A stretch of DNA of 35,874 nucleotides from contig CAIOZS010000002.1 in assembly GCA_903862845.1 (NCBI GenBank), positions 1 to 35,874 on the forward strand. Direction: 5' to 3'. A program made the position numbers and the translations under genes. Within the stretch, counting starts at the first letter, position 1, and every line of letters starts with the position of its first letter. The notes under the pieces were generated by a model. The model was not told the DNA's origin, searched no databases, and worked only from the letters and a program-made list of their open reading frames with translations. The stretch comes from an uncultured Thermoleophilia bacterium (lineage in GTDB: Bacteria; Actinomycetota; Thermoleophilia; UBA2241). This document shows positions 2,772 through 35,600 of the stretch, one piece after another.

Positions 2772-3080
2772 CTACGACTCCCGGCGGCGCGACGCGGGGA
2801 CGGAGCGGCGCTCCGTCAGCCGACCGGTCACGTACTTGTGCAGCACGCCGGCGATCAGCGTCTGGTAGGGGATGCCCTCCTCCAGGGCCCTGGTCTGGAT
2901 GTCGACGAGGTCGCCGGACGAGAGCCGGATGTTCACGCGCCGGTCCTTGATGGCCGTGGCCCGCGCGGCCGCCTTGATGCGGGCGAGCTCGTCCGGGGTC
3001 GCGAGCGACTGCAGGTCGCCCTTCTCGTAGCTCTCCAGGACTTCGGCTTCGTAGGCGTCAAGCTCCGCCACGGGGTCCAC
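2772..3080 (-). CDS. RHH antitoxin of a BrnT-like toxin pair
   Basis: A 102-aa acidic-to-basic protein starting at ATG 3080. The N-terminal half is helical and charged (AYEAEVLESYEKGDLQSLAT). The C-terminal half carries RRVNIRLSSGDLVDIQTRAL and GIPYQTLIAGVLHKYVTGRL, the beta-strand plus two helices of a ribbon-helix-helix DNA-binding domain. This sequence type is familiar as the antitoxin partner of short BrnT-like toxins. Its start lies 23 bp inside the end of the toxin gene, so the two are translationally coupled in the toxin-first order usual for BrnTA. It should neutralise the toxin and autorepress the operon; both are family knowledge, not shown here. Confidence 0.8.
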   Translation of the reverse strand: MDPVAELDAYEAEVLESYEKGDLQSLATPDELARIKAAARATAIKDRRVNIRLSSGDLVDIQTRALEEGIPYQTLIAGVLHKYVTGRLTERRSVPASRRRES

Positions 3081-3342
3081 CGCCCGTCAGGTAGTCGCGA
3101 GTCGCCTTGCGGCTCGGGATGATCGTCTTCAGAAAGAGGTAGTCGGCCTCTTCCACGAACGGCACGAGGCAGGCATAGCCGTCTGCGGCCACAACGAGGA
3201 CGCGCTGATCAGGGTACTTGTGCGGATCGGCGTGGGGCAGCACGTCCAGCAACCCGCCCGCGCCGATCGCCACGACCATGGCCTCGAACGACACGCCGCG
3301 CGCGTCCCTCAGCGACTCGTTCTTCTCAGCGTTCCAGCGCAT
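3058..3342 (-). CDS. BrnT-like (RelE-fold) toxin
   Basis: 94 aa from ATG 3342. The protein begins MRWNAEKNESLRDARGVSFE, the W-x-x-x-K-N..L...RG.SFE opening of BrnT-like toxins, continues with KYPDQRVLVVAADGYACLV and ends FLKTIIPSRKATRDYL, all characteristic of this group. BrnT toxins are RelE-fold ribonucleases that inhibit translation. The antitoxin gene overlaps its 3' end by 23 bp. The Shine-Dalgarno site is weak (GAAG), and no longer start is persuasive because upstream in-frame sequence lacks the family pattern. The module lies directly beside the 368-bp inverted-repeat element at 3486-3853, so it may have arrived with mobile DNA. The pair looks intact, unlike several others in this window. 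Confidence 0.8.
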   Translation of the reverse strand: MRWNAEKNESLRDARGVSFEAMVVAIGAGGLLDVLPHADPHKYPDQRVLVVAADGYACLVPFVEEADYLFLKTIIPSRKATRDYLTGGGPRGGA

Positions 3343-3485: not shown

Positions 3486-3853
3486 TCGCGCGACACGACC
3501 ATCCCCGTCGCTCAGGCGCCGGTGAGCCACGAATGGGGCGCCCGGCGGGGGCACAGTCGGCAGCGCACCCGGCGGGCGCGCGGGCGGCCGCAACGATCCC
3601 GGCGGCTGCGGCGCGGGGCACGTGCGAAAGGGGAAGACAAGGATTCCTTGACTGTCGGGTCGCGCACGGCCGTCCACAGGCTCAGTTGCCGGGGGGAAGA
3701 CAAGGATCCGCCGACTTTTCTTATCTTCCCTCGCAGTACTACCCCGCCGCGCCGGCTCCGGCGGCGGCGGCGCGCCATGTCCGCCTTCTCGCCGCTCGTC
3801 GATCCGGAGGCTGAACGCGCAACCGGACGGAAGGGGATGGTCGTGTCGCGCGA
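3486..3853. repeat. 368-bp element bounded by a 21-bp perfect inverted repeat
   Basis: The left arm is 3486-3506 (it contains CGACACGACCATCCCC) and the right arm is 3833-3853, its exact reverse complement over 21 bp. Between them is the 135-bp repeat at 3613-3747. No open frame of transposase type is present, so this would be non-autonomous if mobile. No convincing target-site duplication is visible just outside the arms. The outer flank of the left arm (ATGACAATCGCGCG, 3479-3492) resembles a motif found at the ends of other repeats in the window. Confidence 0.65.
3613..3747 (+). repeat. 135-bp MITE-like repeat, copy A
   Basis: It is the same length as, and about 80 % identical to, 16392-16526. 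It starts GCGGGG and ends CCCCGC, and the two ends are imperfect inverted repeats of about 30 bp that include GGGAAGACAAGGA on the left and its complement on the right (degraded to TTATCTTCCC in this copy). A third, internal direct copy of the motif, GGAAGACAAGGATCC, lies near the middle. There is no coding capacity. Confidence 0.75.
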
Positions 3854-13106: not shown

Positions 13107-13532
13107 GCTGCTCCCATCAGAGACGGATTCGGTCGGCGCCGGCGGACGCTGCGCGAAGGGACGGCTTCTGCGTGCTTGGACCGCGCACCGCGCTCAGAAG
13201 CTCCGGCCGCGCCTCCCCCGCGCGTCCTGCGGCGAGCCCGTGGTGCTCGCCTGCTTTCTCCCGCCTGTGAGCCCCCATAGACACGTTCCCTGCTTGCGGA
13301 CAGACTGTTTCTCCGACGCCCGACGACTTGCCTGCGGCCGACGGACCGCGGCCGCAGGCAGCCCCGGGAAGAGCGTAACCCCTCAGGCCGAAGGTTGACA
13401 GGTGAAAACGCTTCTCGAGGATCCCTGCCCTTCTGCGGTCGGCGCCGCTCGCGGGCCGGGAAGCCATCGTGGCCAGGCTGCCCCAGATAGTCCGCGCAGA
13501 GCCGGCCCTCGCGGAGCAGCCCACGCCGGAAG
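13107..13532. other. Intergenic region with one strong hairpin
   Basis: 426 bp with no credible gene on either strand. An 11-bp perfect stem (TGCCTGCGGCC at 13329-13339 and its complement at 13350-13360) with a 10-nt loop is the only obvious structure. It has no T-run on either side, so it is a weak candidate terminator for the HD gene and could equally be a leader structure of the phosphatase gene. No known riboswitch consensus was recognised. Confidence 0.45.
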
Positions 13533-14126
13533 CTACGTCCGCCCCTCCTCATCCACAGCCGCGGTCCACTTATCGGCAAAGTGGACGAGCATCTGCAATC
13601 TGCATTCGCGGTGGTGATAGTCGAGGTTGTTGACGCCGCCGGACACGGGGTAGATGCCGTCGTGGGCGACGATGGCCTGGGCCTCGTCCTCGGTCAGCTC
13701 GACGCGGTTGCTGATGAGGTAGAGGCTCCGCACGGCGAGGTTCATCGTCGTCGCCTCAGGGTTGACCTTGTAGGTCTTGCCGCGCTTCGTGACCTCCCAC
13801 TGCACGTCGTTGCGCAGGTAGTAGGGCTTGCCCGGATAGCCGACCTTGCCGAGGTCGTGGAAGAGCGCCGCGATGACCACCGACTCGTCGGGGATGTTCG
13901 GCGCCAGCAGACTCCGGATGCTGAGGGCGTTGCAGGTCACGCCGACGGAATGCAGCAGCAGGCCTCGCTCGATGTTGAGATGGAAGCGCGTGGAGGCGGG
14001 CGCGGTCAGCCAGCTCGTCTCGCGCTCGATGTAGTCCTTGAAGGCGAGGACCTGCGCCTTGCGCGGGCCGAGGAGCTCAAAGAGCGCGTGGTACCTGGCG
14101 TCCAGGTTGTCGAGGGTGAGCGTCAT
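13533..14126 (-). CDS. HD-domain hydrolase, second gene of a two-gene unit
   Basis: 197 aa. ATG 14126 is chosen because it overlaps the TGA of the upstream gene (TGATG). The HD motif is spread as LLLHSVGVTCNALSI (His), VIAALFHDLGKVG (His-Asp) and AIVAHDGIYP, matching metal-dependent phosphohydrolases of the HD superfamily. The segment between GKVGYPGKPYYLR and SRV..TEDEAQ is a beta-rich insertion. These enzymes act on nucleotides, cyclic nucleotides or nucleic acids; the substrate is not visible here. Strict coupling to a 626-aa protein with a possible nuclease motif suggests a joint role in nucleic-acid processing or defence. A truncated homologue of this gene lies at 28749-29172, without the partner. 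Confidence 0.7.
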   Translation of the reverse strand: MTLTLDNLDARYHALFELLGPRKAQVLAFKDYIERETSWLTAPASTRFHLNIERGLLLHSVGVTCNALSIRSLLAPNIPDESVVIAALFHDLGKVGYPGKPYYLRNDVQWEVTKRGKTYKVNPEATTMNLAVRSLYLISNRVELTEDEAQAIVAHDGIYPVSGGVNNLDYHHRECRLQMLVHFADKWTAAVDEEGRT

Positions 14127-16006: not shown

Positions 16007-16647
16007 GCTTGCCGCCTCCTGGCGCGATTGTCGGTGCCGCGAGCCCACGACCGAGCCGCGCGTGGCGGCGGTCGAGGAGCAACTCGCGGTCTTCGTATGC
16101 TCACAGTAGCAGGCGCCGCGGACGGAACTGCGGGCGCCGCAGCACCCGCAGCCGCGCAGCCGCCGGCCGGTGGATGCGGCGGATCTCGACCTCACGGCCG
16201 ACCGCCCGCGCGTGCTGGCCGCTCTCGTCCGCCCGCTCCACGCGGGCGGCCGCGAAGCCCCTGAGCTTCACGCCCCGCTCGCCGCCACGCGGCGGCATCC
16301 CCTCTATCGAAGGGGCACGTCCACGACAACGAACATCCTCCGGAACTTCCGTGCCCCTTGCCTTGACTTCTCGCTGCCCGGCCGCTCCAGGGCGGGGTGG
16401 TGCGCAAAGGGAAGACAAGGATTCCTTGACTTTCCGGTCGCGCGCGGCCGTCTGCAGGCTCGATCGCTGAGGGGGGAGACAAGGATCCGGCGGCATTCCT
16501 TGTCTTCCCTCGCAGCACTACCCCGCTGCGGCGGCCGCGGGTCGCGCTTGCCGCGAGGCAATCCGAGTGATGAACGGCGCTGCGATGGCGCCCTGAGCCT
16601 CCTCGTAGAGAATCAGCACATCGCCCGGCGTGGCAGTTAGGAGCAGC
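16007..16647. other. Divergent intergenic region with repeat and hairpin
   Basis: This 641-bp gap separates the minus-strand nuclease-like gene from the plus-strand FEN gene and must hold both promoters; neither is clear. It contains a 10-bp perfect stem (AAGGGGCACG at 16310-16319 and its complement at 16350-16359) and the 135-bp repeat at 16392-16526. Short frames on the minus strand are possible but have no ribosome-binding site or recognisable content. Confidence 0.5.
16392..16526 (+). repeat. 135-bp MITE-like repeat, copy B
   Basis: It is the same length and orientation as 3613-3747. The terminal inverted repeats are better preserved here: the left end GCGGGGTGGTGC...AGGGAAGACAAGGA matches the complement of the right end (TTCCTTGTCTTCCCT...GCACTACCCCGC) at about 28 of 34 positions. 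An internal direct copy, GGGGAGACAAGGATCC, is also present. It is non-coding. Confidence 0.78.
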
Positions 16648-17552: not shown

Positions 17553-19736
17553 TCAGCGTGAGCCGGGCGCCCAGCCCTCGTCGGGCCGCGCCCCAGACGT
17601 CCTCCCCAGCAGCTCCGCCAGCCGGCCACTGTCAACAAGCTGCACGCCTCGATGCTCGGCCAGCCGCGTGGCATCTGCCGAGAACCCGGCTGGGCAGATC
17701 AGCGCGAGCCGGCCACCCGGATCGTCCACGGGAACGACGCCGGCGATGGCTCTGACGACCTCCACCCCGAGCGGCGCGGGGTGGTTCTCGCAGCGGATGT
17801 ACAAGGTCGTCGCCACGCCCACCACGTCCTCCCGCCGCGCGATCACGTCGACGCCACCGTCACGGGATCCCTGGGTGAGCTCCGTCTTGTACCCGAGATC
17901 TCGAAACAGCCTCTGCACGAATCCCTCGAACTGGCGGGCGCTCATGTCCGCGTACTTGAGCGCACCGGCGAGCGGGCTTCGCGCCGCGGGTTTCTGGGGT
18001 GGTTGCAGCCCGAACAGGCCGAAGAGCTCCTGCGCAGAAAGGACGCGCTCGAGATCCATGCTCACTTGATCGATGACCGTGTCGAAGAGAAGCTGCTTGG
18101 CCTCGAGCAGGCCGGCGATTCTCTCTTCGATCGTGCCTGAGCACGTGTACGTGTACACGTCGACGGACGACGTCTGGCCCATGCGGTGGCTGCGGTCCTC
18201 AGCCTGCTTCTCGCTGGCCGGATTCCACCAGCGGTCGAAGTGCACCACGTAGGACGCCTCCTGCAGGTTGAGACCCTGACCCCCGGCCTTCAGCGACAGG
18301 ATCATGACGCCATGACGTGAGTCGGCCTTGAAGCGACCCACGGCGCCGTGGCGCTCCTCCTGGGACATCGCCCCCGTGTACGTCAGGGGGGCGTGCTGCA
18401 CCAGCCCGCGGGCGATCGCCGCGACGCCAAAAGACGCGTCCGTGAACTGCGAGAACACGAGCGCGCGGTGATCCTCGGCGCGCAGCACCTCCAGGCGCTC
18501 CCGCAGATCGGCGAGCTTGGCAGACTCCCCCGTCGCGGGGCAGAAGTTGCAGATCTGCTTGAGCCTGGTGATGAGGCTGAGGACATGGGTGATGCTCACC
18601 GTCTCACCCCGCGATCGCAGCTCCACGACGCCCTGCTGCTCGGCCATGTCGTAGGCCTTGCGCTGAGCGACGGTCAGATCGAGCATCACGCTGTGGAGGC
18701 GTTTGGGGGGCAGCTCCGTGAGCACGTCCGACTTTCGCCGCCGGAGCTGCAGCTCCCGGTGCCGCTCGAGCAGAAGCCCATCGACGGCCAGCGGCGCGAC
18801 CGAATCCCCGGCCTCATTGGGCTGCAGGAGCTCCATGATCGAGGCGAGATCGTCGATGGAGTTCTCGAGCGGGGTCCCGGTGAGTGCCCACGACCGTGAT
18901 CGCGGAAGCGCCTTGCAGGCCGCACTTACAGAGGTCGCGCGATTCTTGATCTTCTGCGCCTCGTCGAGGATCGCGACCCCCCACGTTCTGCGGCGCGGGC
19001 CGCAGTCGCGGTCGTGCGTGAGGTCTGAGCGCAGCGACTCGTAGGTGGTCACGAAGATGTGCGCCGGGTAGGCCCACGCCATGGCGCGCTGCTGGGCAGT
19101 ACCCCTGATGGTGCTCACGCGCAGCTCCGGCGCCCACTTCTTGATCTCGCCACGCCACTGATACACGAGGCTCGCCGGTGCGACGATGAGGGCGGACTCG
19201 ACGGCCCCCTCATGGAACAGGATGCGCAGCGCCGCGATAGCCTGGACCGTCTTTCCGAGGCCCATGTCGTCGGCGAGAAGCACCTCGGGCCTGGAGACGA
19301 GCACGCGGACCCCGTCGAGCTGAAATGGCAAAAGCTCGCCGGGCCAATCCAGGACCGAGGCCCCGGAGGGAAACAGCAGCTCCACGGGTGGCGCGAGAAG
19401 AAGACGCAGGCGCTCGCGCAGCGAAGGCCCGTGAGCGACGGCCGCGGGCAGGCGGATGCCCGCCATGACGCCGGGTCCCACGGGGCCCGCGGCGCGGACA
19501 CCGGATGAAGACCGCGGCTCGAGGGAGTCGCCGAGCCGCAGGGCGCAGGGCGGCGACGCCACGAGGCGCACAGCCACGCGCCGACAGGCGCCGCCACCGA
19601 GCGCCGAGACGTCCGTCGCCTGGACCGGCCGGGCGTCGAGCCCGAGCGCGCTCCGCGCGGCGGCGGCGGGGCGCGGAGCCGGCAGCCGCAGGCGCCGCGG
19701 CGACGCCGGCGCGGCCTTCCTACTGAACAGCCCCAA
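17553..19736 (-). CDS. SNF2-type helicase with C-terminal Mrr-like domain
   Basis: 727 aa from TTG 19736, overlapping the preceding gene by 17 bp. After a basic, Pro/Ala-rich N-terminus of about 120 residues, the two RecA lobes follow: LADDMGLGKTVQA (motif I, about 154-166), LDEAQKIKN (motif II, about 258), ALTGTPLENS (motif III, about 288), a TGAMSQEERHGAVGRFK block, LSLKAGGQGLNLQEAS and EDRSHRMGQ (motif VI). The last 125 residues resemble Mrr_cat: MSARQFEGFVQRLFRDLGY and SRDGGVDVIARREDVVG, then YIRCENHPAPLGVEVVR where the usual Q-x-K is R-C-E. The ATPase should translocate on double-stranded DNA. The nuclease may be inactive or altered. It is the last gene of a five-gene coupled operon with BrxD-like ATPases. 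Confidence 0.88.
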   Translation of the reverse strand: MGLFSRKAAPASPRRLRLPAPRPAAAARSALGLDARPVQATDVSALGGGACRRVAVRLVASPPCALRLGDSLEPRSSSGVRAAGPVGPGVMAGIRLPAAVAHGPSLRERLRLLLAPPVELLFPSGASVLDWPGELLPFQLDGVRVLVSRPEVLLADDMGLGKTVQAIAALRILFHEGAVESALIVAPASLVYQWRGEIKKWAPELRVSTIRGTAQQRAMAWAYPAHIFVTTYESLRSDLTHDRDCGPRRRTWGVAILDEAQKIKNRATSVSAACKALPRSRSWALTGTPLENSIDDLASIMELLQPNEAGDSVAPLAVDGLLLERHRELQLRRRKSDVLTELPPKRLHSVMLDLTVAQRKAYDMAEQQGVVELRSRGETVSITHVLSLITRLKQICNFCPATGESAKLADLRERLEVLRAEDHRALVFSQFTDASFGVAAIARGLVQHAPLTYTGAMSQEERHGAVGRFKADSRHGVMILSLKAGGQGLNLQEASYVVHFDRWWNPASEKQAEDRSHRMGQTSSVDVYTYTCSGTIEERIAGLLEAKQLLFDTVIDQVSMDLERVLSAQELFGLFGLQPPQKPAARSPLAGALKYADMSARQFEGFVQRLFRDLGYKTELTQGSRDGGVDVIARREDVVGVATTLYIRCENHPAPLGVEVVRAIAGVVPVDDPGGRLALICPAGFSADATRLAEHRGVQLVDSGRLAELLGRTSGARPDEGWAPGSR

Positions 19737-20286
19737 GCCCGCTCACGTCCTCGCCGCGAGCCTCGCGGAGCCCGGCTGCGGCCCTCTCGAAGGGCTCCGC
19801 CAGCAGACCGGCCGCCCGCAGCCGGTCGACCAAGGTGCGTTCGGGCGAGCCGCCCGCGGGGCGCCCCGACGACCAGAGCAGGTGCAGCTCTGCGGCGTCC
19901 ACGTCCTCGCCCTGCTCATCGGCGCCGCTTGCGAGCGGGGCCGTCTGAGCGGCGACCCTGCAGGTGGCGACGGGCGTCTCGATCTCTCCGGCGAAAAAGC
20001 CCGGATCGACCTCATCCGCCATGGCGAAGACGACCAGCGGACGTGAGGTGGCGGCGCTGAAGAGCGCGGTGGTGAGCTCTCGCGCCGCGCGCCGCCTGAG
20101 ATCTTGTGGTCTCCAGAGGACTGTGCGCGGCGTCTCGACCCTGGAGTAGACGAACTCAACGGGCTCGCCTTTGAGGTTCATCACGAAGAGCGCGCCGTCG
20201 TAGCCCCCGGCCGCGTCGCGAATCACCCTGAGGAATCCTGCCACGTGGGCGCCGACGCCGTCGGTGGCACGGAAGGGGATGCTCAA
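19720..20286 (-). CDS. Unrecognised 188-aa protein of the BrxD-like operon
   Basis: The start is probably TTG 20286, overlapping the TGA of the ATPase gene (TTGA); a longer frame upstream runs inside that gene and has shadow-like composition. No family is recognised. The first 110 residues look like a compact alpha/beta domain: FRATDGVGAHVAGFLRVIRD, YDGALFVMNLKGEPVEFVYS, VLWRPQDLRRRAAREL and TSRPLVVFAMADEVDPGFF. The C-terminal part is acidic then helical (GADEQGEDVDAAELHLLW, LVDRLRAAGLLAEPFERAA). There is no signal or membrane segment. Its fixed position between a P-loop ATPase and a SNF2 helicase suggests an adaptor or effector subunit. A GTG a few codons later is an alternative start. Confidence 0.7.
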   Translation of the reverse strand: MSIPFRATDGVGAHVAGFLRVIRDAAGGYDGALFVMNLKGEPVEFVYSRVETPRTVLWRPQDLRRRAARELTTALFSAATSRPLVVFAMADEVDPGFFAGEIETPVATCRVAAQTAPLASGADEQGEDVDAAELHLLWSSGRPAGGSPERTLVDRLRAAGLLAEPFERAAAGLREARGEDVSGLGAVQ

Positions 20287-21548
20287 GGCGCGGCCGCCTG
20301 GTCGCCCGGCTCGTCGTCTTCGACGGGCTTCTCGAGCAGGGCGTCTTCGGCGTAGTCGTCGGCGATGTGCTGTACCTCGATCTCGGGCTCGTAGGCCGGC
20401 GCCACGCGATTGAGGTCCCAGGTCGTGATCCACGAGCGTACATACTCACGCATCTGCCGGCCCGTCTTGAGCGAGGCGTCGAGCGTCGCGGGCACGCAGT
20501 CATACGCTGTGGCGTAGATGACCGCGAGCGTCGCGAGCACCTCCTCGAGGTCGTCCTGCGACGGCTCGCGAAGCCGCAAGAGCTCCTGGTCGACGGCGTC
20601 CATGGCGAGCTCGGCGAGACTGGCCGTGAGGACGCTCTCGGGATCGCCGCGCAGACGGAAGCGGAAGCCGATCTGGTTGCGGTCGTCCTTCTCGTCGATG
20701 ACCGCCGAAGCGTAGTCGGGCGTGACTGCGCCGACGGCGAGAAGACCGGGGACGGCGTGATCATCGGCAAGCCCCAGCAGCCGGGCAAGCTCCGCATAGG
20801 CTCTGCCTCGCTGGAGCACCGTGTACCGGCCCATCAGCTCGAGCTCGTCAAGGAGGATCACCCAGCCGTCGTAGCCCGCGGCGCACAGCAGTCTGGCCAT
20901 GAACGTGAAGCGCTGACGCGCGAGGTCCTTGATGGCGATCTTCTCGAGGGCGAAGCGCTTGGCGTCGCCGGTCTGGCGAAGGCCCTCACGCAGGCGGCCC
21001 ACCTGCATGGCGCCGCCCTCCCAGAACCCGATCAGCTCGTCCTGCATGTCGGTATCCGCCCCCGCCTGCTCGAAGAGCCACGTCGTGGCCGCGAACCGGG
21101 AGTTCAGATCAGAGCCCTGCAACCAGAGGCTGAGCGCGGCGAACCGCGGGCTCTGGGTGCTCAGGCGGCTGACGGCGATGTCGCGCAAGGCGTCGCCGAC
21201 GACGTTCTCGCAGACCAGGCTGTCGACCGCGGCGCGAAACACCTTGAGCGGGTCGAACAGCTGCGTCTCTTTTGAGATGACGACCTTGCTGACCGCGAAG
21301 TTCTCCTGGCGCGCCTTGTGACTGAGGTACTCGAGCACGTGGGACTTGCCGCCGCCGAAGTCGGCGGCGACCAGCATCCCGCGCGGCCGCCGGCCGCCGG
21401 AAACGCTCCCGCGCAGCTCCGCGAGGCGGGCGTCAAAGACGCCGAGGACTTCGTGAGCCGAGCAGCCCAGGGCGCTGACGGCGTCCCGGTTGGGGACGCC
21501 GGCGCGCAGCGCCTCGATGGCTCGGCGGGCAGAGACCCGGACGTTCAT
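20283..21548 (-). CDS. BrxD-like (PF10923/DUF2791) P-loop ATPase
   Basis: 421 aa from ATG 21548, overlapping the TGA of the preceding gene (ATGA). The sequence opens SARRAIEALRAGVPNRDAVS, the hallmark N-terminus of the BrxC/BrxD-type ATPase family. Walker A is AADFGGGKSHVLEYL (about 61-75), Walker B is WVILLDELELMGRY (about 229-242, Asp234-Glu235), and GLLAVGAVTPDYASAV sits where the sensor strand is expected. A FRFRLRGDPESVL segment and an acidic C-terminus follow. In BREX type 2 loci BrxD accompanies helicase and PglZ genes; none of PglX, PglZ or PglW is seen here. The gene sits in a different five-gene context with a degenerate paralogue and a SNF2 helicase. An ATP-dependent DNA-sensing role is inferred from the family. 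Confidence 0.85.
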   Translation of the reverse strand: MNVRVSARRAIEALRAGVPNRDAVSALGCSAHEVLGVFDARLAELRGSVSGGRRPRGMLVAADFGGGKSHVLEYLSHKARQENFAVSKVVISKETQLFDPLKVFRAAVDSLVCENVVGDALRDIAVSRLSTQSPRFAALSLWLQGSDLNSRFAATTWLFEQAGADTDMQDELIGFWEGGAMQVGRLREGLRQTGDAKRFALEKIAIKDLARQRFTFMARLLCAAGYDGWVILLDELELMGRYTVLQRGRAYAELARLLGLADDHAVPGLLAVGAVTPDYASAVIDEKDDRNQIGFRFRLRGDPESVLTASLAELAMDAVDQELLRLREPSQDDLEEVLATLAVIYATAYDCVPATLDASLKTGRQMREYVRSWITTWDLNRVAPAYEPEIEVQHIADDYAEDALLEKPVEDDEPGDQAAAP

Positions 21549-22516
21549 GCCGCACCCCCCTGCGCCGCCGCGATGCGCACCATGGGCGCGTACGGGTCTG
21601 GATAGCTGCGGTCGCGGACGTCGTCCCAGATGCGGTTTCGGAGCGCCCTGTACTTCTGCAGGCTGCGATTGCTGGAGTCGTCGAGCAGCGCCTCGGGAGC
21701 AGACACCACGACCAGAAGGCCCTCCATCTCGTCGGTCGCGTCGATGAACTGGCGGAGCACCTCGTAGGCATCCCACAGGGCCGCCGGAGTGTAGTAGATC
21801 TCGCCTTCGGGAACGTCGCGCCGATGCGTCGCCGCGAGCGCGCGCAGATCGAGGTTGACGACGAGGCCGGACCCGCCGGTGTAGCGGATCCAGCGCGCCG
21901 CCGAGACGAGCATGGCCCTCGCGTTGTGACGCCCGATGCGCTGGTAGATCTGCAAGGGCTTCACCGCGCTGATGAGCCGCAGGTCGCCCCTCAGCCAATC
22001 GAGAATGGACGTGCAGCTCTGCCGCCCGCTGGCGTCGTCCTCCAGCTGCGCCAGGCAGAGCTGAGCCATGGCCACGCGGAAATCCTTGGCCAGCGTGTAG
22101 TTCCTGATGACGCTCACGGTGAGGCGCTTCTGCAGCTCTCGCCGCACGATGTTGGGATCGACCTCGTTGCGGGCGGCGAGCGTCGCTATAGTCAGGGGTC
22201 CGTCGGCCACCAGGTAAGGTTCGGAGGCGAGCGCCGCGTTCACGCGGTCGGCCAGTGCGCTCCAGTCGATCTGCGCGGCAACCGCGAAGAAGACCTGCTG
22301 GATCATGCTGATCCTGGTCTGCGCGGCCGCGACGCGGACGCCGGTGAAGCCGAGACGCTCGCTGCTGTGCTTGAGATCTCGCTCCAGGCGGTCGAGCGCC
22401 GCGGCGTCGGCGCCTACGGCGAACTTGACCGCGGCGCCTCCGTCGCGGACGAAGCTCGAGAGGTAGTCGTCGGCGAGAAAGGCGGCGTAGTCTGCGGCGT
22501 TGATCTGCGGAGTCAC
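21545..22516 (-). CDS. BrxD-like paralogue with degenerate P-loop
   Basis: 323 aa from GTG 22516, with GAGGT eight bases upstream and four bases after the preceding stop. The N-terminal YLSSFVRDGGAAVKFAVGAD has the layout of the strand leading into a P-loop in BrxD-type ATPases, but the G-x-x-x-x-G-K-S/T is replaced by GADAAALDR (about 35-43). Downstream, TRISMIQQVFFAVAAQIDW, then GSGLVVNLDLRALAAT (about 216-230) at the Walker B position lacking the Asp-Glu pair, and EGLLVVVSAPEALLDD parallel the active paralogue encoded next. I infer a catalytically dead ATPase that pairs with it. No other family is suggested. The overlap ATGA with the next gene supports a fixed stoichiometry. Confidence 0.65.
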   Translation of the reverse strand: MTPQINAADYAAFLADDYLSSFVRDGGAAVKFAVGADAAALDRLERDLKHSSERLGFTGVRVAAAQTRISMIQQVFFAVAAQIDWSALADRVNAALASEPYLVADGPLTIATLAARNEVDPNIVRRELQKRLTVSVIRNYTLAKDFRVAMAQLCLAQLEDDASGRQSCTSILDWLRGDLRLISAVKPLQIYQRIGRHNARAMLVSAARWIRYTGGSGLVVNLDLRALAATHRRDVPEGEIYYTPAALWDAYEVLRQFIDATDEMEGLLVVVSAPEALLDDSSNRSLQKYRALRNRIWDDVRDRSYPDPYAPMVRIAAAQGGAA

Positions 22517-22520
22517 GGCG

Positions 22521-23315
22521 TTAGACCTCGAAGCCTATGGAGGTGTAGTCCACGCGGCGCCCATCTTCTCCCACGACGGTGATCATGCCGGACGCCGCCT
22601 TGGTGCCGGTGCTCCGCCCAAAGTGGACGCGAGCGCCTTTGCGGGTCACGCGCTCGCCGCTCTGCTCCAGGAGGTAGAGGTCGCGGCCGAGCTCGGGCTT
22701 TGAGTACTCCCTGCTGCTCCCCGGGGCGATGGTGAGCGCCGCGTATACATGGTCGACGCGCACGTCAGGTCCGGGCCGGCGACCGCCGGCGCGCAGATGC
22801 CTGGCGTGGTCCCAGGCGACGTAGAGCGACTCGAGAAACTGGGTCGCCTTGAATCGCGGCGGCCGCGCCTGGACCGCTTTGAGGTGTGTCACGAGGGCGG
22901 ACGGCCGCACGCTGCGATAGGGCTTGCGATCGATGAAGACGCAGCGCCGCGCCGCGTCCACCTTGACGAGGCTCGGGTAGCAGACGATGGTGCCCTCTTC
23001 GACGCTCACCTGGAGACCACTCGCGGCAGCGTCGGCAACGAGCTCGGCGGTGAACCCGCCATCGGCGAAATAGGCGGTCTCCTCCTCTTCGGAGAGCCCC
23101 CACGACTGCGCGGCGCTGAGGGTCTCCGCGCGGGCGGCCTGCAGGTGGCCCTCGAGCTCCGCCAGGGCCTTGGCAAGCGCACTCAGGTCGCCGACGCGAG
23201 CTGCCTTCTGGCCGGCCTTGAGGCCGCTGGTCAGCCTGGCCACCGATTTCAATGCCGTTTCGATGCGGCGCTGCGTCTCTTCGCAGGCTCCTTCAAGAAC
23301 TGCCCCGTCTGTCAC
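22521..23315 (-). CDS. Unrecognised 264-aa first protein of the BrxD-like operon
   Basis: GTG 23315 is chosen because GGAGGT lies seven bases upstream. The first 100 residues are helical and coiled-coil-like (ETQRRIETALKSVARLTS, LSALAKALAELEGHLQAARA). The rest is a mixed domain with conserved-looking blocks: VCYPSLVKVDAARRCVFIDR, LESLYVAWDHARHLR, VDHVYAALTIAPGSSREYSK and LGRDLYLLEQSGE, ending in beta-rich TGTKAASGMITVVGED. I know no named domain for this; the layout (coiled coil plus a possible DNA- or partner-binding module) would suit a sensor or scaffold. It is the first gene of the five-gene operon, so its upstream region (23316-23513) must hold the promoter, next to a long stem-loop. Confidence 0.7.
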   Translation of the reverse strand: MTDGAVLEGACEETQRRIETALKSVARLTSGLKAGQKAARVGDLSALAKALAELEGHLQAARAETLSAAQSWGLSEEEETAYFADGGFTAELVADAAASGLQVSVEEGTIVCYPSLVKVDAARRCVFIDRKPYRSVRPSALVTHLKAVQARPPRFKATQFLESLYVAWDHARHLRAGGRRPGPDVRVDHVYAALTIAPGSSREYSKPELGRDLYLLEQSGERVTRKGARVHFGRSTGTKAASGMITVVGEDGRRVDYTSIGFEV

Positions 23316-23427
23316 CTGTGCTACCTCCAGTGCGTCTGCTTGCCAGTAAACATCAGCGGCTACGTCGCGGAGCGCATCTGCGCACGGCGAACAAGGCTCC
23401 GAGCAGCCTCGGCCAGACTCAAGCCAA

Positions 23428-23507
23428 GTTGTGCAAGCTCAGGGCAGCGCATGCCCCACAGGCGGGATTCGCGCCTGGCAGGGCACTGCTGAAGAGCTTG
23501 GCACAAC
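23428..23507. repeat. Long imperfect stem-loop upstream of the BrxD-like operon
   Basis: GTTGTGCAAGCTC (23428-23440) pairs with GAGCTTGGCACAAC (23494-23507), 13 pairs with one bulged G. Inside it CAGGCG (23459-23464) pairs with CGCCTG (23472-23477) across a 7-nt loop. It could be an RNA structure in the operon leader, a recombination site or a remnant of a mobile element. It lies in the 279-bp gene-free stretch 23316-23594, where no -10/-35 was recognised. Confidence 0.5.
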
Positions 23508-23594
23508 GTCGCCATGTTACCTGACGCAGGTGACGGAAGAGTCCCGCGGAAGGCGCCGTCAGGCGGAGCCGATCGTCCACGACTCCGCCTGACG

Positions 23595-23888
23595 ATGGCA
23601 TCCCCCGTGCCGGCGCGCCTGCATCGTGAGCGGCTCGCCGGATATCGCGCGAGGGGCCACACCGTGAAATGCGGGGCGGGTGGACACGTTCTGCCTGAGC
23701 TGGTGGGCAGCGACGCTGCCCGCGAGCTGCTCAAGCCCACACGCGGGCGGCCACGTTCCACGAACCCCAAGGATCACGTGAAGATCCGCCTGGATGCGGA
23801 CGTGCTGGCCGCGTTCAAGCGCACCGGCAGTGGCTGTCAGACGCGGCTGAACAGTGCTCTGCGTAACTGGTTGAGTACGCACGCCTGA
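23595..23888 (+). pseudogene. Chimeric remnant: TOTE helicase tail joined to BrnA tail
   Basis: From ATG 23595 the frame reads PVPARLHRERLAGYRARGHT, matching the last residues of the TOTE helicase encoded just downstream (VLARMHQKRLAGYRAMGYV). It then switches, at about 23690, to VLPELVGSDAARELLKP, RGRPRSTNPKDHVKIRLDAD and WLSTHA. That part is about three-quarters identical to the C-terminal two thirds of the BrnA antitoxin at 31222-31512. DNA similarity with that locus continues some 60 bp past the stop. The product would have an RHH domain but neither a complete BrnA nor a helicase. It is best read as a recombination scar that happens to remain open, and it might still bind BrnA operators. 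Confidence 0.7.
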
Positions 23889-23949
23889 GGTTGGACGCCG
23901 ACATCGAGGAACACGCTCGCCGTGCACGACACCAAGGGGATCGAGAAGC

Positions 23950-24190
23950 CGGCGGCAGTCTGAGAGCCGTGTCGACCTGAAGGGCGTCCGCCACCGAAGG
24001 CTTGTCCGGGTTGTTGTCCTGGTCAGGTTCGACGCGCACCAGCCAAGGCGCGACCGCGTAGCGCTCCCACCACTCGGTCAGGGGCACGACGACCCGCAGA
24101 GGGAGGATCCCGATCGCGTCTTCGCTGACGATCACCGCCGGGCGGGTCTTGCTGATCTCGGCGCCTCGATGCCGCCCGCGGCGGAGGAGG
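23950..24190 (-). pseudogene. MazF/PemK-family toxin remnant
   Basis: On the minus strand a frame reads GAEISKTRPAVIVSEDAIG, LPLRVVVPLTEWWERY, APWLVRVEPDQDN and NPDKPSVADALQVDTA, the core of MazF/PemK-type endoribonuclease toxins. The expected start, M-x-R-G-D-V-x-x-V-D-F-x-P, is missing: only LLRRGRHRG precedes the conserved part, so about eight codons are lost. The C-terminal 20-30 residues (usually R-F-V-R-x-L-G and a helix) are also gone, the break coinciding with the end of the BrnA-like duplicated block. No antitoxin gene is adjacent. It should be inactive. The divergent TOTE gene starts 36 bp away. Confidence 0.65.
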
Positions 24191-24225
24191 TGTCGATTCA
24201 CTCTGGAGACTGAAACAATGCCGGA

Positions 24226-26724
24226 ATGGTCAACGCGGATGGCGAGACGGACGACCTCACGGCTCTGCGCGCCGAATGCGTGCGGCTGCGCGCGGAAAAC
24301 GCCCGCCTCAGGTCGCAGCTTGGGCTGACGAAGGCTGAGCCCTTGGCTCTGCCGCGCCAGGCCCCGCCCGCGACGAGGGAGCATGCGGCGAACCGCCGTT
24401 CCCCTGCGGCGATGGCGCTCCCTGTGGCTGCTCCCAGCGCGCTCGAGACCGATGGCCAAGTGGCCTCCGCCTCCCCCGTCGCTGCCAAGCTGGCGCTTTT
24501 CCGCACCCTCTTCCGCGGCCGCGAGGACGTCTTCGCGGTGCGCTGGCAGAACAAGGCGGGTCGGTCGGGCTACGCCCCCGCGTGCGCGCACGAATGGGAT
24601 CGCTCCGTGTGCTGCAAGCCCCAGGTCAAGTGCGCCGACTGCCCCAACCGGGCGCTGCTCCCCCTCACCGACGAGATGATCCGCGACCACCTCACGGGCC
24701 GGCACACCGTCGGCATCTACCCGCTGCTGCCCGACGAGACGTGCCGCTTTCTGGCGCTCGACTTCGACAAGGCCGAGTGGCGGCATGACGTCTCGTCGTT
24801 CGCGGGAGTGTGCGCGCAGTCCGATGTCCCGGCGTACGTCGAGGTGTCGCGGTCCGGGGACGGCGCGCACGTGTGGGTCTTCTTCGCCGGGGCGATCGAC
24901 GCTGCGCAAGCGCGACGGCTCGGCTCGGCGCTTCTGACCCGAACGACGGCACAGCGCCATGAGGTGGGCCTCGACTCATACGACCGCCTCTTCCCCGGCC
25001 AGGACACGCTCCCCAAAGGCGGCTTCGGCAACCTCATCGCCTTGCCCCTGCAGCGCCAGCCGCGGGACGAGGGCAGAAGCGTGTTCATCGACGCCGACTT
25101 TCAGCCGGCGCTCGATCAGTGGCATCTGCTCTCCCGCGTGACGCGGATGACGGCCACCGACGTGGCACGAGCTCTCGAGAAGGTGCTCGACGGAGCCGAC
25201 GCCCTCGGCGAGCGCATCGCCCTGGACGACGGCGCGGAGAAGCCATGGACCCTTCCCCCGTCCGGGCGACGGCCAGAGCCTCGCATCGCGGGGCCCTTCC
25301 CCGACGCGCTCGAGGTGGTGTCAGGCAACCTCGTGTACGTGAGCAAGAACGGCCTTCCGCAGGGCCTGCAAGACAGGCTCGTCCGCCTGGCCGCATTCGA
25401 GAACCCGGAGTTCCACAGGGCTCAGGCGATGCGACTTCCAACGTTCGCGAAGCCGCGGCTCATCAGCTGCGCTGAGGAGCTTCCCGGCTACATCGCCCTG
25501 CCGCGCGGCTGCTTTGACGCGGCGCTCCAGCTGCTCGAGGACCACGGCATCGAGCCGCGGCTCCGTGACGAGAGGACGGATGGCCAGCCGCTCGACGCGA
25601 CTTTCCACGGCGAGCTCACGCCGCAGCAGCTCGAAGCCGCCGAGGCGATCCTGGCGCACGACAACGGCGTCCTGTGCGCCGCCACCGCGTTCGGCAAGAC
25701 GGTCGTCGGTGCCTGGCTCATCGCCGCCCGGCAGGTCAACACTCTGGTGCTGGTGCATCGCCGCCAGCTGATGGACCAATGGTGCGAGCGGCTCGCAGCC
25801 TTCCTCGACCTGCCGCCTGCCGCGATCGGTGTGATCGGCGGCGGCCGCACGCGGCCGACAGGAGCGATCGACGTCGCCGTCATCCAGTCCCTCAACAAGA
25901 AGGGCGTGGTCGCTGACCTCGTGGCCGACTATGGGCAGGTGATCGTCGACGAGTGCCACCACCTCTCGGCCTTCAGCTTCGAACAGGTGCTGAGGCAGGT
26001 GCGGGCGAAGTACGTCGTGGGCCTCACGGCGACGCCCGTGCGCCGGGACGGGCACCAGCCGATCATCACCATGCAGTGCGGCCCGATCCGCTACCGCACC
26101 GACGCCAGGAGCCAAGCCGCAGCGCGCCCGTTCGAGCACAGGGTCGTTGTGAGAGACACTGCCTTCTCGATGCCCGCGGCGGACATCGAGCCGGGCATCC
26201 AGGCGATCTACTCCGCGCTCGCCGCGGACTCCGCGCGCAACGCCCTCATCGTCGCCGACGTGCTCGCCGTCGCCGCCGCGGGGCGCTCCCCGCTCGTGCT
26301 CACCGAGCGTACCGAGCATCGCGACAGCCTCGCCGCAGCGCTGGACGAGTCGGCGGCGACAGTGTTCATCATGTCGGGCGGGATGGGCGCCAAGAGGCGG
26401 CGGGCGATCGCGGAGGCGCTGGCAGCGACGCCACCCGAGGCCCCGCGAGTGATCGTCGCCACCGGCCGCTGCGTCGGCGAGGGGTTCGACGACGCGCGCC
26501 TGGACACGCTCTTCCTGGCCATGCCGGTCGCCTGGCGAGGGACGCTGCAGCAGTACGCCGGCCGACTGCACCGGGTGCACGCGGGCAAAGCGGACGTGAT
26601 CATCTACGACTACGTGGACGGCGGTGTCCCCGTGCTGGCGCGCATGCATCAGAAGCGGCTTGCCGGGTATCGCGCGATGGGCTACGTAGTGGCAAGTGGA
26701 GCCTCGCCGTCCGATTCGACGTAG
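24226..26724 (+). CDS. TOTE-type primase-helicase (AEP domain plus SF2 helicase)
   Basis: 832 aa. Residues 10-35 form a short coiled coil (LRAECVRLRAENARLRSQL). Residues about 88-330 match the archaeo-eukaryotic primase domain described from TOTE conflict systems: DVFAVRWQNKAGRSGYAPAC, a Cys cluster (CCKPQVKCADCPN), GIYPLLPDETCRFLALDFDK with the catalytic Asp pair (about 179/181), and VEVSRSGDGAHVWVFF with the His (about 215). Residues about 470-820 are a superfamily 2 helicase: CAATAFGKTVVGA, LVHRRQLMDQW, IVDECHHLSAFSF, GLTATPVRRDGH and QYAGRLHRVHAGK. TOTE proteins are proposed DNA-based conflict effectors. No nuclease gene follows directly; the PIN-ImmA pair converges. A 65-bp copy of its 3' end lies upstream at about 23603. 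Confidence 0.88.
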   Translation: MVNADGETDDLTALRAECVRLRAENARLRSQLGLTKAEPLALPRQAPPATREHAANRRSPAAMALPVAAPSALETDGQVASASPVAAKLALFRTLFRGREDVFAVRWQNKAGRSGYAPACAHEWDRSVCCKPQVKCADCPNRALLPLTDEMIRDHLTGRHTVGIYPLLPDETCRFLALDFDKAEWRHDVSSFAGVCAQSDVPAYVEVSRSGDGAHVWVFFAGAIDAAQARRLGSALLTRTTAQRHEVGLDSYDRLFPGQDTLPKGGFGNLIALPLQRQPRDEGRSVFIDADFQPALDQWHLLSRVTRMTATDVARALEKVLDGADALGERIALDDGAEKPWTLPPSGRRPEPRIAGPFPDALEVVSGNLVYVSKNGLPQGLQDRLVRLAAFENPEFHRAQAMRLPTFAKPRLISCAEELPGYIALPRGCFDAALQLLEDHGIEPRLRDERTDGQPLDATFHGELTPQQLEAAEAILAHDNGVLCAATAFGKTVVGAWLIAARQVNTLVLVHRRQLMDQWCERLAAFLDLPPAAIGVIGGGRTRPTGAIDVAVIQSLNKKGVVADLVADYGQVIVDECHHLSAFSFEQVLRQVRAKYVVGLTATPVRRDGHQPIITMQCGPIRYRTDARSQAAARPFEHRVVVRDTAFSMPAADIEPGIQAIYSALAADSARNALIVADVLAVAAAGRSPLVLTERTEHRDSLAAALDESAATVFIMSGGMGAKRRRAIAEALAATPPEAPRVIVATGRCVGEGFDDARLDTLFLAMPVAWRGTLQQYAGRLHRVHAGKADVIIYDYVDGGVPVLARMHQKRLAGYRAMGYVVASGASPSDST

Positions 26725-28748: not shown

Positions 28749-29172
28749 TCACGCGCCCGAGTCGCAGAGCCTCGCCCAGCGGACGGCGACGGTGACGCGC
28801 AGACGAAGAGGCCGACGCGGAAACCGGACGGCCCGGTTTGGCAGCCACGTGCGCCCCTCCTCGTCCACGGCGTCCGTCCACATGACGGCGAAGTGGACAA
28901 TCATCCGCAGCCTGCGGTGCTTGTGGTGATAGTCGAGATTGTTGACGCCGCCGAACACGGGGTAGACGCCGTCGTGGGTGGCGATCGCCTGGGCCCGGGC
29001 CTGAGCCTCGTCCTCACTCAGCTCGACGAGGTTGCTGATCAGGTAGAGGCTCCGGAAGGCCAGATTCACGGTGGTCGCCTCGCGGTCGACCTTGCAGGTC
29101 ATGCCCCGCTTCGGGATCTCCCACTGAACGTCGCTCCGCAGGTAGCAGGGCTTGCCCGGATCGGCGACGACG
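28749..29172 (-). pseudogene. Truncated paralogue of the HD hydrolase
   Basis: From about 29168 down to 28848 the minus strand encodes PGKPCYLRSDVQWEIPKRG, TVNLAFRSLYLISNLVELSE, THDGVYPVFGGVNNLDYHH and TDAVDEEGRT, colinear with the C-terminal half of the HD protein at 13533-14126 and about 75 % identical. The N-terminal half, with the HIS...HD metal site, is missing; a different small gene (29185-29412) sits there instead. Four extra residues (ARAQ) are inserted after EDEAQ, and the stop is lost, so the frame runs on to 28749. The 626-aa partner is absent. It is a decayed duplicate and should be inactive. Confidence 0.75.
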
Positions 29173-30919: not shown

Positions 30920-31138
30920 ATGACTCATCCGCAGAACGCCGCCGGCGCGGCGCGGCCGGCCTCGAAGCTGCTCCAGTCTCGCGGCGTCGATCCCCACGAG
31001 CTCTGGACGAATCACGTTCGCCGACGGCTCGAGCACGGCTTTGACCCCAAGCTCGCCTGCCTTGGCCTGATCCTCGACTGTGTGCTCGCCGCCAACTGGC
31101 GTGTGCTGGACGAGCGCGCATTGATGTGGGTACAATAA
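30920..31138 (+). CDS. Small hypothetical protein, 72 aa
   Basis: ATG 30920 follows GGGAAGCGAAG, a moderate ribosome-binding site. Third codon positions are strongly G/C, as in the coding genes here. The protein reads ASKLLQSRGVDPHELWTNHV and LACLGLILDCVLAANWRVLD, mixed helix with a hydrophobic C-terminal half and no known family. Its stop codon is inside the TACAAT box of the next promoter. On the opposite strand part of this region weakly resembles BrnA (ELVGIDAA...RGRPR), so the gene could be a chance frame over a BrnA scrap. Confidence 0.4.
   Translation: MTHPQNAAGAARPASKLLQSRGVDPHELWTNHVRRRLEHGFDPKLACLGLILDCVLAANWRVLDERALMWVQ
31131..31136 (+). promoter_or_regulatory. -10 box TACAAT of a leaderless brnTA-type promoter
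   Basis: TACAAT ends seven bases before ATG 31144, the spacing of a leaderless mRNA. TGGACG about 18 bp upstream is a partial -35 (four of six). It would drive the toxin remnant and antitoxin. Confidence 0.6.
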
Positions 31139-31143
31139 ATACG

Positions 31144-31221
31144 ATGCTGGTGAGCTACGATCCAGCCAAGAGCGAGCGCAACGAGGCGGAGCGTGGCTCG
31201 GCATTTCGAGAAGGATGCGCT
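31144..31221 (+). pseudogene. BrnT toxin remnant, first codons only
   Basis: From ATG 31144 the frame reads MLVSYDPAKSERNEAERG, the D-P-x-K-x-x-x-N-x-x-x-R-G start of BrnT toxins. After about 18 residues the family sequence stops, and SAFREGCA leads directly, in the same frame, into the BrnA start at 31222. About 65-70 toxin residues, including the RelE-like catalytic core, are gone. The promoter is kept, so the locus is an antitoxin with the toxin excised, possibly made as a fusion with a 26-residue extension. Confidence 0.65.
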
Positions 31222-31512
31222 ATGCCGCGCAAGCCAAACCCCGAGCTGATTGACGACGACGCTCCTGAAGCCACGGACGAGTGGTTCAAAGAAGCACGGG
31301 CGGCGAAGGACGTTCTGCCTGGGTTGGTTGGCATTGATGCTGCGCAGGAGCTGCTCAAGCCCAAGCGCGGGCGGCCGCGTTCCACGAATCCCAAGGAGCA
31401 CGTGAACATCCGCCTGGATGCGGACGTGCTGCGCGCGTTCAAGACAACAGGCCGTGGATGGCAGACGCGGCTGAACGATGCCTTGCGTGACTGGCTGAGT
31501 ACCCACGCCTGA
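31222..31512 (+). CDS. brnA: BrnA family antitoxin, toxin partner deleted
   Basis: 96 aa from ATG 31222, with GAAGGA upstream. The sequence MPRKPNPELIDDDAPEATDE, LPGLVGIDAAQELLKP, RGRPRSTNPKEHVNIRLDAD and the closing WQTRLNDALRDWLSTHA is a standard BrnA antitoxin: acidic toxin-binding N-terminus and RHH-like DNA-binding C-terminus. It normally binds BrnT and represses the operon. Only the first codons of brnT remain upstream. A second, truncated copy of its 3' two thirds is at 23690-23888. As an orphan it could still neutralise BrnT toxins from incoming plasmids, an anti-addiction role, but that is inference. Confidence 0.85.
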   Translation: MPRKPNPELIDDDAPEATDEWFKEARAAKDVLPGLVGIDAAQELLKPKRGRPRSTNPKEHVNIRLDADVLRAFKTTGRGWQTRLNDALRDWLSTHA

Positions 31513-31724
31513 GGCTGGACGCCGGCGTCGAGCGGCACTCTACTGAGTGCGGCACCCTGGGGATCGAGTATGGCCGGCCCCACGCCGCGCCGACTCACGG
31601 GTGGACGCTGAGCCCCCGGGAGGAAGGTGGGGCCCCGCCGCGCGAGGATCATGACCAGCAGCGCTACTCAGGGGCCGACCAGCACGAGAGGCGCCCGCAG
31701 GCTGGCGCGACTCGCGGACGAAGG
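31513..31724. other. Intergenic, short inverted repeat
   Basis: There is no credible gene. The first 60 bp continue the similarity with 23889-23950. GGCCCCAC near 31575 and GTGGGGCC near 31629 are an 8-bp inverted pair about 45 bp apart, of unknown meaning. Confidence 0.35.
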
Positions 31725-32452: not shown

Positions 32453-32599
32453 CTACCCACTGATGAGCTTCGCCTTCAGCGCGGCGAGCTCGACGTCGGT
32501 CAGGGCGCCGCTGTCCCGGAGTTTCACGAGGGAGGCTCGGCAGAGCAGAAGAAAGTCACGAGACCGGGTGAGGGATTGATTGGCGCTCGGGGTGGGGAA
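32453..32599 (-). pseudogene. SHOCT-domain fragment
   Basis: The minus-strand frame reads LLLCRASLVKLRDSGALTDV and ELAALKAKLISG before the stop. This is the SHOCT short C-terminal domain (L...L.dsG.LTd.E....K.KLL). The frame opens only 49 codons upstream, at a stop within GGGGAATCACTTGAC, with no start or ribosome-binding site, so the main protein is missing. After the amber stop the same frame continues for 49 codons with coding-like sequence (YPFDSREHVDYSLFDARVD). A diverged copy of the SHOCT start lies at 35525-35600. Confidence 0.45.
32498..32573. repeat. 76-bp dispersed repeat, copy 1
   Basis: About 78 % identical, without indels, to 35525-35600. It encodes the LLCRASLVKLRD part of the SHOCT fragment on the minus strand. 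In both copies a GGGGAAT-x-ACTTGACGC motif lies downstream in the plus direction (32594 and 35699). Confidence 0.6.
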
Positions 32600-35389: not shown

Positions 35390-35524
35390 TCGCGAAATAC
35401 AGATTTAGGGTGACTATATGATGTGACGTTAAGAGGATCTTGATGGACTCGCGACCGCCCTGCGAAGAAGTCCGTCCCGACCGGATCACTCTGCGACCGT
35501 GAGGTCGCCATGCGTGGCTTGCCC

Positions 35525-35600
35525 GGTCAGGTCGCCCCTGTCCCGTAGCTGCACGAGGGAGGCCCGGCAGAGTAGAACGACCTTACGAGACCGGGCGAGT
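35525..35600. repeat. 76-bp dispersed repeat, copy 2
   Basis: About 78 % identical to 32498-32573. On the minus strand it reads LLCRASLVQLRDRGDLTG and then diverges from the SHOCT sequence, so only the first half of the domain is present here. Confidence 0.6.

Follow-up and report, generated by a model that had tools for sequence, protein, structure and literature searches.

The AEP-helicase of TOTE conflict systems, recognised by PF22548 plus ResIII, carries the C-terminal motif IYDY.D..VP.L.RM..KRL.GYRA.GY. A BrnA antitoxin (PF14384) is encoded immediately 3' of the gene for its toxin, BrnT, which it neutralises, and it represses the brnTA promoter. BrnA binds DNA through a C-terminal ribbon-helix-helix (RHH) domain (PMC11980606). 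Bacterial gene remnants and chimeric pseudogenes that arise by illegitimate recombination consist of truncated, unrelated fragments with sharp borders and frame damage, and they are not conserved in relatives.

In a stretch of 35,874 nucleotides from an uncultured Thermoleophilia bacterium (contig CAIOZS010000002.1 of assembly GCA_903862845.1; hereafter the window), a chimeric ORF touches on all three. Its first part aligns to the TOTE motif but, unlike an AEP-helicase, the remnant keeps only ~38 codons' worth of the gene, contains a stop and a frameshift, and is devoid of a catalytic domain. Its second part resembles the C-terminal RHH part of BrnA (profile positions 17-68 of 68) but, unlike this antitoxin, it is devoid of the N-terminal part, has Cys in place of a conserved Trp, and has no adjoining BrnT partner. 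The locus shares the properties of gene remnants listed above, but it differs from typical examples in that the joint is, by chance, in frame over 97 codons. Very probably, the segment is a recombination scar of gene debris, i.e., a mosaic of truncated fragments that remained after duplication and deletion within an island of defence and toxin-antitoxin genes. The features are listed in Table 1.

Table 1. Gene fragments, genes and other features at and around the chimeric ORF (positions in the window)
Feature	Position	Strand	Remarks
Perfect 12-bp inverted repeat, 14-nt loop	23557..23594	.	Directly 5' of ATG 23595
TOTE AEP-helicase gene remnant, 3' end	23563..23678	+	Last 6 codons and stop missing; helicase frame interrupted by TGA 23590-23592 and by indels
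Chimeric ORF, 97 codons	23595..23888	+	ATG 23595 to TGA 23886-23888
Joint between helicase-derived and brnA-derived parts	23678..23686	.	Identity in 9-nt blocks switches here from helicase to brnA; position known to within ~8 nt
3'-terminal brnA remnant (last 66-67 codons, RHH region included) plus 65 nt of 3' flank	23686..23953	+	Paralogue of 31310-31578
MazF/PemK toxin gene fragment, both ends missing	23968..24171	-	Profile positions 13-80 of 109
Intact TOTE AEP primase + superfamily II helicase gene	24226..26724	+	No closer relative of the helicase remnant was found
brnA, complete antitoxin domain	31126..31512	+	In frame after only ~21 brnT-head-like codons; paralogue of the second half of the chimera

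The two halves and their joint

The helicase-derived half was recognised by local nucleotide alignment of 23563-23660 with 26590-26685, which gave a score of 78, far above the 300 dinucleotide shuffles that served as control (mean 26.3, sd 3.0, maximum 44). In a blastn search over the whole window, this similarity amounted to 76.5% identity over 98 nt (E 1.5e-11), and chance similarity is ruled out by these scores. With tblastn, 64% identity over 25 aa was found (23604-23678; E 1.5e-6), extending the similarity at the protein level to 23678. The earlier note, made from the letters alone, had assigned the first 30 codons of the ORF to a helicase tail. The homology holds, but within the ORF it comprises ~28 codons (23595-23678), and it sets in 32 nt 5' of the ORF, in a different frame. 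Translation of that upstream part (23563-23592) in the helicase frame gives AEPIVHDSA*, in place of ADVIIYDYVD in the intact gene; hence, a stop and then a frameshift lie ahead of ATG 23595.

Only the region of the last conserved motif is represented in the chimera, and the AEP primase and helicase domains, which score 324 bits (PF22548) and 75 bits (ResIII) in the intact gene, are absent. Even within this region, which is conserved in the tails of 28 TOTE homologues, the remnant deviates at positions that nearly all TOTE tails have retained: RM has become RL, KR has become ER, GY has become GH, and V-P-[MV]-L has become V-P-V-P. In similarity to the remnant, the neighbouring helicase (score 78) far exceeds the best of the other TOTE homologues tested (score 35), which rules out another known TOTE gene as the source of the remnant and indicates a local origin, either by duplication or from a close paralogue that has since been lost.

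As the earlier note had held for the remainder of the ORF, the brnA-derived half matches the brnA copy at 31.3 kb (81.5% identity over 270 columns in blastn, E 1.5e-68), and the homology continues beyond the stop codon into the flank. At the protein level, the identity to this BrnA is 79%. The half scores 65.2 bits against PF14384 (cut-off 26.1), and the RHH segment in its C-terminal part is open and recognisable by this profile. The N-terminal codons of BrnA, corresponding to profile positions 1-16, have been replaced by helicase-derived sequence. When the same BrnA segment is compared, the chimera scores 64.4 bits vs. 74.6 bits for the 31-kb copy. The Trp of the GxGWQT motif, which is kept in all eight relatives aligned, is the residue that is Cys in the chimera, and inspection of the same eight relatives by eye showed the chimera to be the deviant copy at several further sites too. 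A sequence search against solved structures found no BrnA relative.

One frame is common to both parents from ATG 23595 through the stop codon, which bears out the in-frame joint that had been described earlier. In this frame, a longer, mechanically defined ORF begins at ATG 23514. That the joint is an artefact of assembly is scarcely credible: the genome is indeed a fragmented draft of 352 contigs, but the divergence of the two halves from the other genomic copies is 19-24% and they are, therefore, separate real sequences, and the assembly contains no further copy of either remnant that was available for mis-joining. The proposed recombination between a defence locus (TOTE) and a toxin-antitoxin locus (brnA) stands, in the form of a scar that joins material from both genes.

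Constraint and signals for expression

The differences between the helicase part and the intact gene are spread evenly over the three codon positions (8/8/9; NG86 dN/dS 0.35/0.47), which is the pattern expected in the absence of constraint on these codons. The brnA-derived codons differ from the 31.3-kb copy at 8/7/16 sites by codon position. Synonymous and nonsynonymous codon changes number 12 each (NG86 dN 0.11, dS 0.38), and these codons run over 198 nt without indel or stop. When neutral change of equal amount was simulated, the mean was 20 nonsynonymous codons, and 0.05% of the runs gave 12 or fewer (P 0.0005); therefore, the brnA pair has experienced constraint. However, when one neutral and one strictly constrained lineage were simulated, the mean was 10.3 nonsynonymous codons with a 95% range of 7-13. 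The observed number fits this half-neutral, half-constrained model, and the chimera itself may, therefore, have been neutral throughout. The frame stays open in 46% of fully neutral runs. As judged from their substitutions, the brnA copies were constrained during part of their history, on one lineage or on both.

At the start of the ORF, the inverted repeat at 23557-23594 is predicted to form a very stable RNA hairpin (z -3.1), and no Shine-Dalgarno sequence precedes ATG 23595. The repeat overlaps the decayed helicase codons and is unique within the window; as a guess, it may have arisen by quasipalindrome correction. A search for promoters of the sigma-70 type did not reveal any in 23200-24300. 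An in-frame GTG at 23664 is preceded, seven bases upstream, by the purine-rich sequence GAGGGG. If there is any product, initiation at this codon, yielding an RHH peptide of 74 aa with little of the helicase part, appears the most plausible from the sequence.

Such a peptide, started at GTG 23664 or at GTG 23703, could be a small BrnA derivative consisting of the RHH only, which would serve as a DNA-binding orphan, either a regulator or a decoy, e.g., at the promoters of other brnTA loci of the genome, with the helicase codons as a mere leader. The purine-rich site agrees with this option, as do the open RHH part with its 64 bits to PF14384, the pairwise dN/dS of about 0.3 of the brnA copies, the three brnT genes on other contigs of the genome, and the retention in the remnant of the very region with which BrnA binds DNA (PMC11980606). 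Nevertheless, this option is unlikely, considering the loss of the conserved Trp and the N-terminal part, the possibility that the constraint signal stems wholly from the other brnA copy, and the lack of a promoter-like site in 23200-24300. Even more doubtful is that the scar has been domesticated, with a truncated BrnA with intact RHH being expressed behind a leader derived from the helicase fragment and serving as a toxin-less DNA-binding regulator in the defence island.

That the entire chimera of 97 codons is a new protein kept by selection, with an N terminus from the helicase and a C terminus from the RHH of BrnA, is highly improbable. The open ORF and the in-frame joint are what could be expected of such a protein, but the changes in the helicase half favour no codon position and its frame is interrupted shortly before the ORF, the start codon is placed at a hairpin without a Shine-Dalgarno sequence, and no relative contains the fusion. 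The predicted fold of the chimera has a mean pLDDT of 45, a confidence too low to bear on this question. The suggestion in the earlier note that the recombination could yield a new DNA-binding protein thus found no confirmation: besides the points just mentioned, i.e., the stop and frameshift upstream, the even distribution of changes over the codon positions, the hairpin at the start and the lack of the fusion in relatives, it is at odds with the altered conserved residues and the loss of the Trp and the N-terminal region of BrnA.

The surrounding island and other genomes

The chimera does not stand alone. Its brnA homology ends ~15 nt from the cut end of the MazF fragment, the N-terminal part of which is not recognisable in any frame. 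Thus, 23563-24171 consists of three truncated gene fragments placed end to end, beside the intact TOTE gene that starts at 24226. One related genome contains an exact match of 24 nt, which lies in another reading frame and is not surrounded by a MazF gene; it was taken as chance.

The two brnA copies are mutual closest relatives within the genome. The ORF at 31.3 kb opens with a BrnT-head-like stretch of ~21 codons (MLVSYDPAKSERNEAERGSAF; cf. MLLEFDAAKNETNIRNRGLSF in a plasmid BrnT) and then passes straight into BrnA, which indicates that the toxin gene of this copy is mostly gone. This region (31126-31512) can, therefore, be described as a toxin-less brnTA remnant, the ORF of which reads as a BrnT-head/BrnA fusion. 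Near 23.6 kb, no BrnT match was found; such matches are present only at 3.1 kb, where the score is below the cut-off, and on three other contigs of the genome, C38, C128 and C212, where they are of intact length. The 3' flank of the brnA copies is common only to these two places and, hence, no repeated attC-like element is present, which dismisses integron-like cassette ends.

Several other observations were made in the window. On the minus strand, 2772-3336 contains a gene weakly similar to brnT and, after it, a candidate CopG-type antitoxin, possibly a divergent toxin-antitoxin pair. Besides a ZorD/DpdE-like SNF2 helicase, the minus-strand cluster 17553-23315 encodes two ATPases resembling BrxC/BrxD and a small protein that weakly matches CATASP; possibly, it is an uncharacterised defence operon. 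Another gene fragment of the island, at 28840-29168, is a partial copy, 80% identical, of the gene at 13528-13844, which has a weak HD-domain match. A repeat of ~159 bp is found at 3598-3756 and 16377-16535, and ~40 near-full-length copies of it, with 85-96% identity, are interspersed in the draft genome. It has no match in Rfam, its RNA fold is unremarkable (z -0.4), and perhaps it is a small mobile or REP-like element. Finally, a direct repeat of 76 bp (83% identity) is located at 32497-32572 and 35524-35599, and a partial copy is present on contig C10.

None of 14 additional genomes from the same family contained the chimera, which rules out a fusion conserved in relatives, and no similar DNA was detected in the plasmid collection. 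A search of another 298 genomes of the class yielded no relative of the brnA copies. Also the TOTE gene had no match in the six genomes of the same genus searched, and the locus, therefore, looks recently acquired or variable. An inherited neighbourhood of TOTE and brnTA was considered and rejected, as no BrnA, BrnT or MazF match was present in the flanks of TOTE homologues examined, many of which were short.

Proposed formation of the scar and its meaning

How could this scar have been formed? Presumably, an extra helicase end, or even an entire second helicase, and a brnTA copy were formerly present at the locus. One or more deletions or illegitimate joinings would then have taken out the end of the helicase gene, brnT, and the start of brnA, and the two remnants would have been left in one frame by accident. 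Since the joining, the helicase part would have been drifting; the brnA part may have been drifting likewise, or it may still yield a small RHH peptide. Consistent with gene remnants, the homology to both parents reaches outside the ORF, i.e., into 23563-23594, in another frame with a TGA, and 65 nt past the stop codon. The further truncated copies in the window, at 28840-29168 and in the brnT head at 31126, agree with an origin as gene debris. A selected function for the chimera as a whole is not indicated.

Duplication and deletion have left here an ordinary scar, although a well-resolved one. Gene callers may label the chimeric ORF as a BrnA antitoxin. The locus shows, to within a few bases, that duplication and deletion in a defence/toxin-antitoxin island joined unrelated gene fragments into an open frame and, although there is no sign of use here, such open frames are raw material for new genes.
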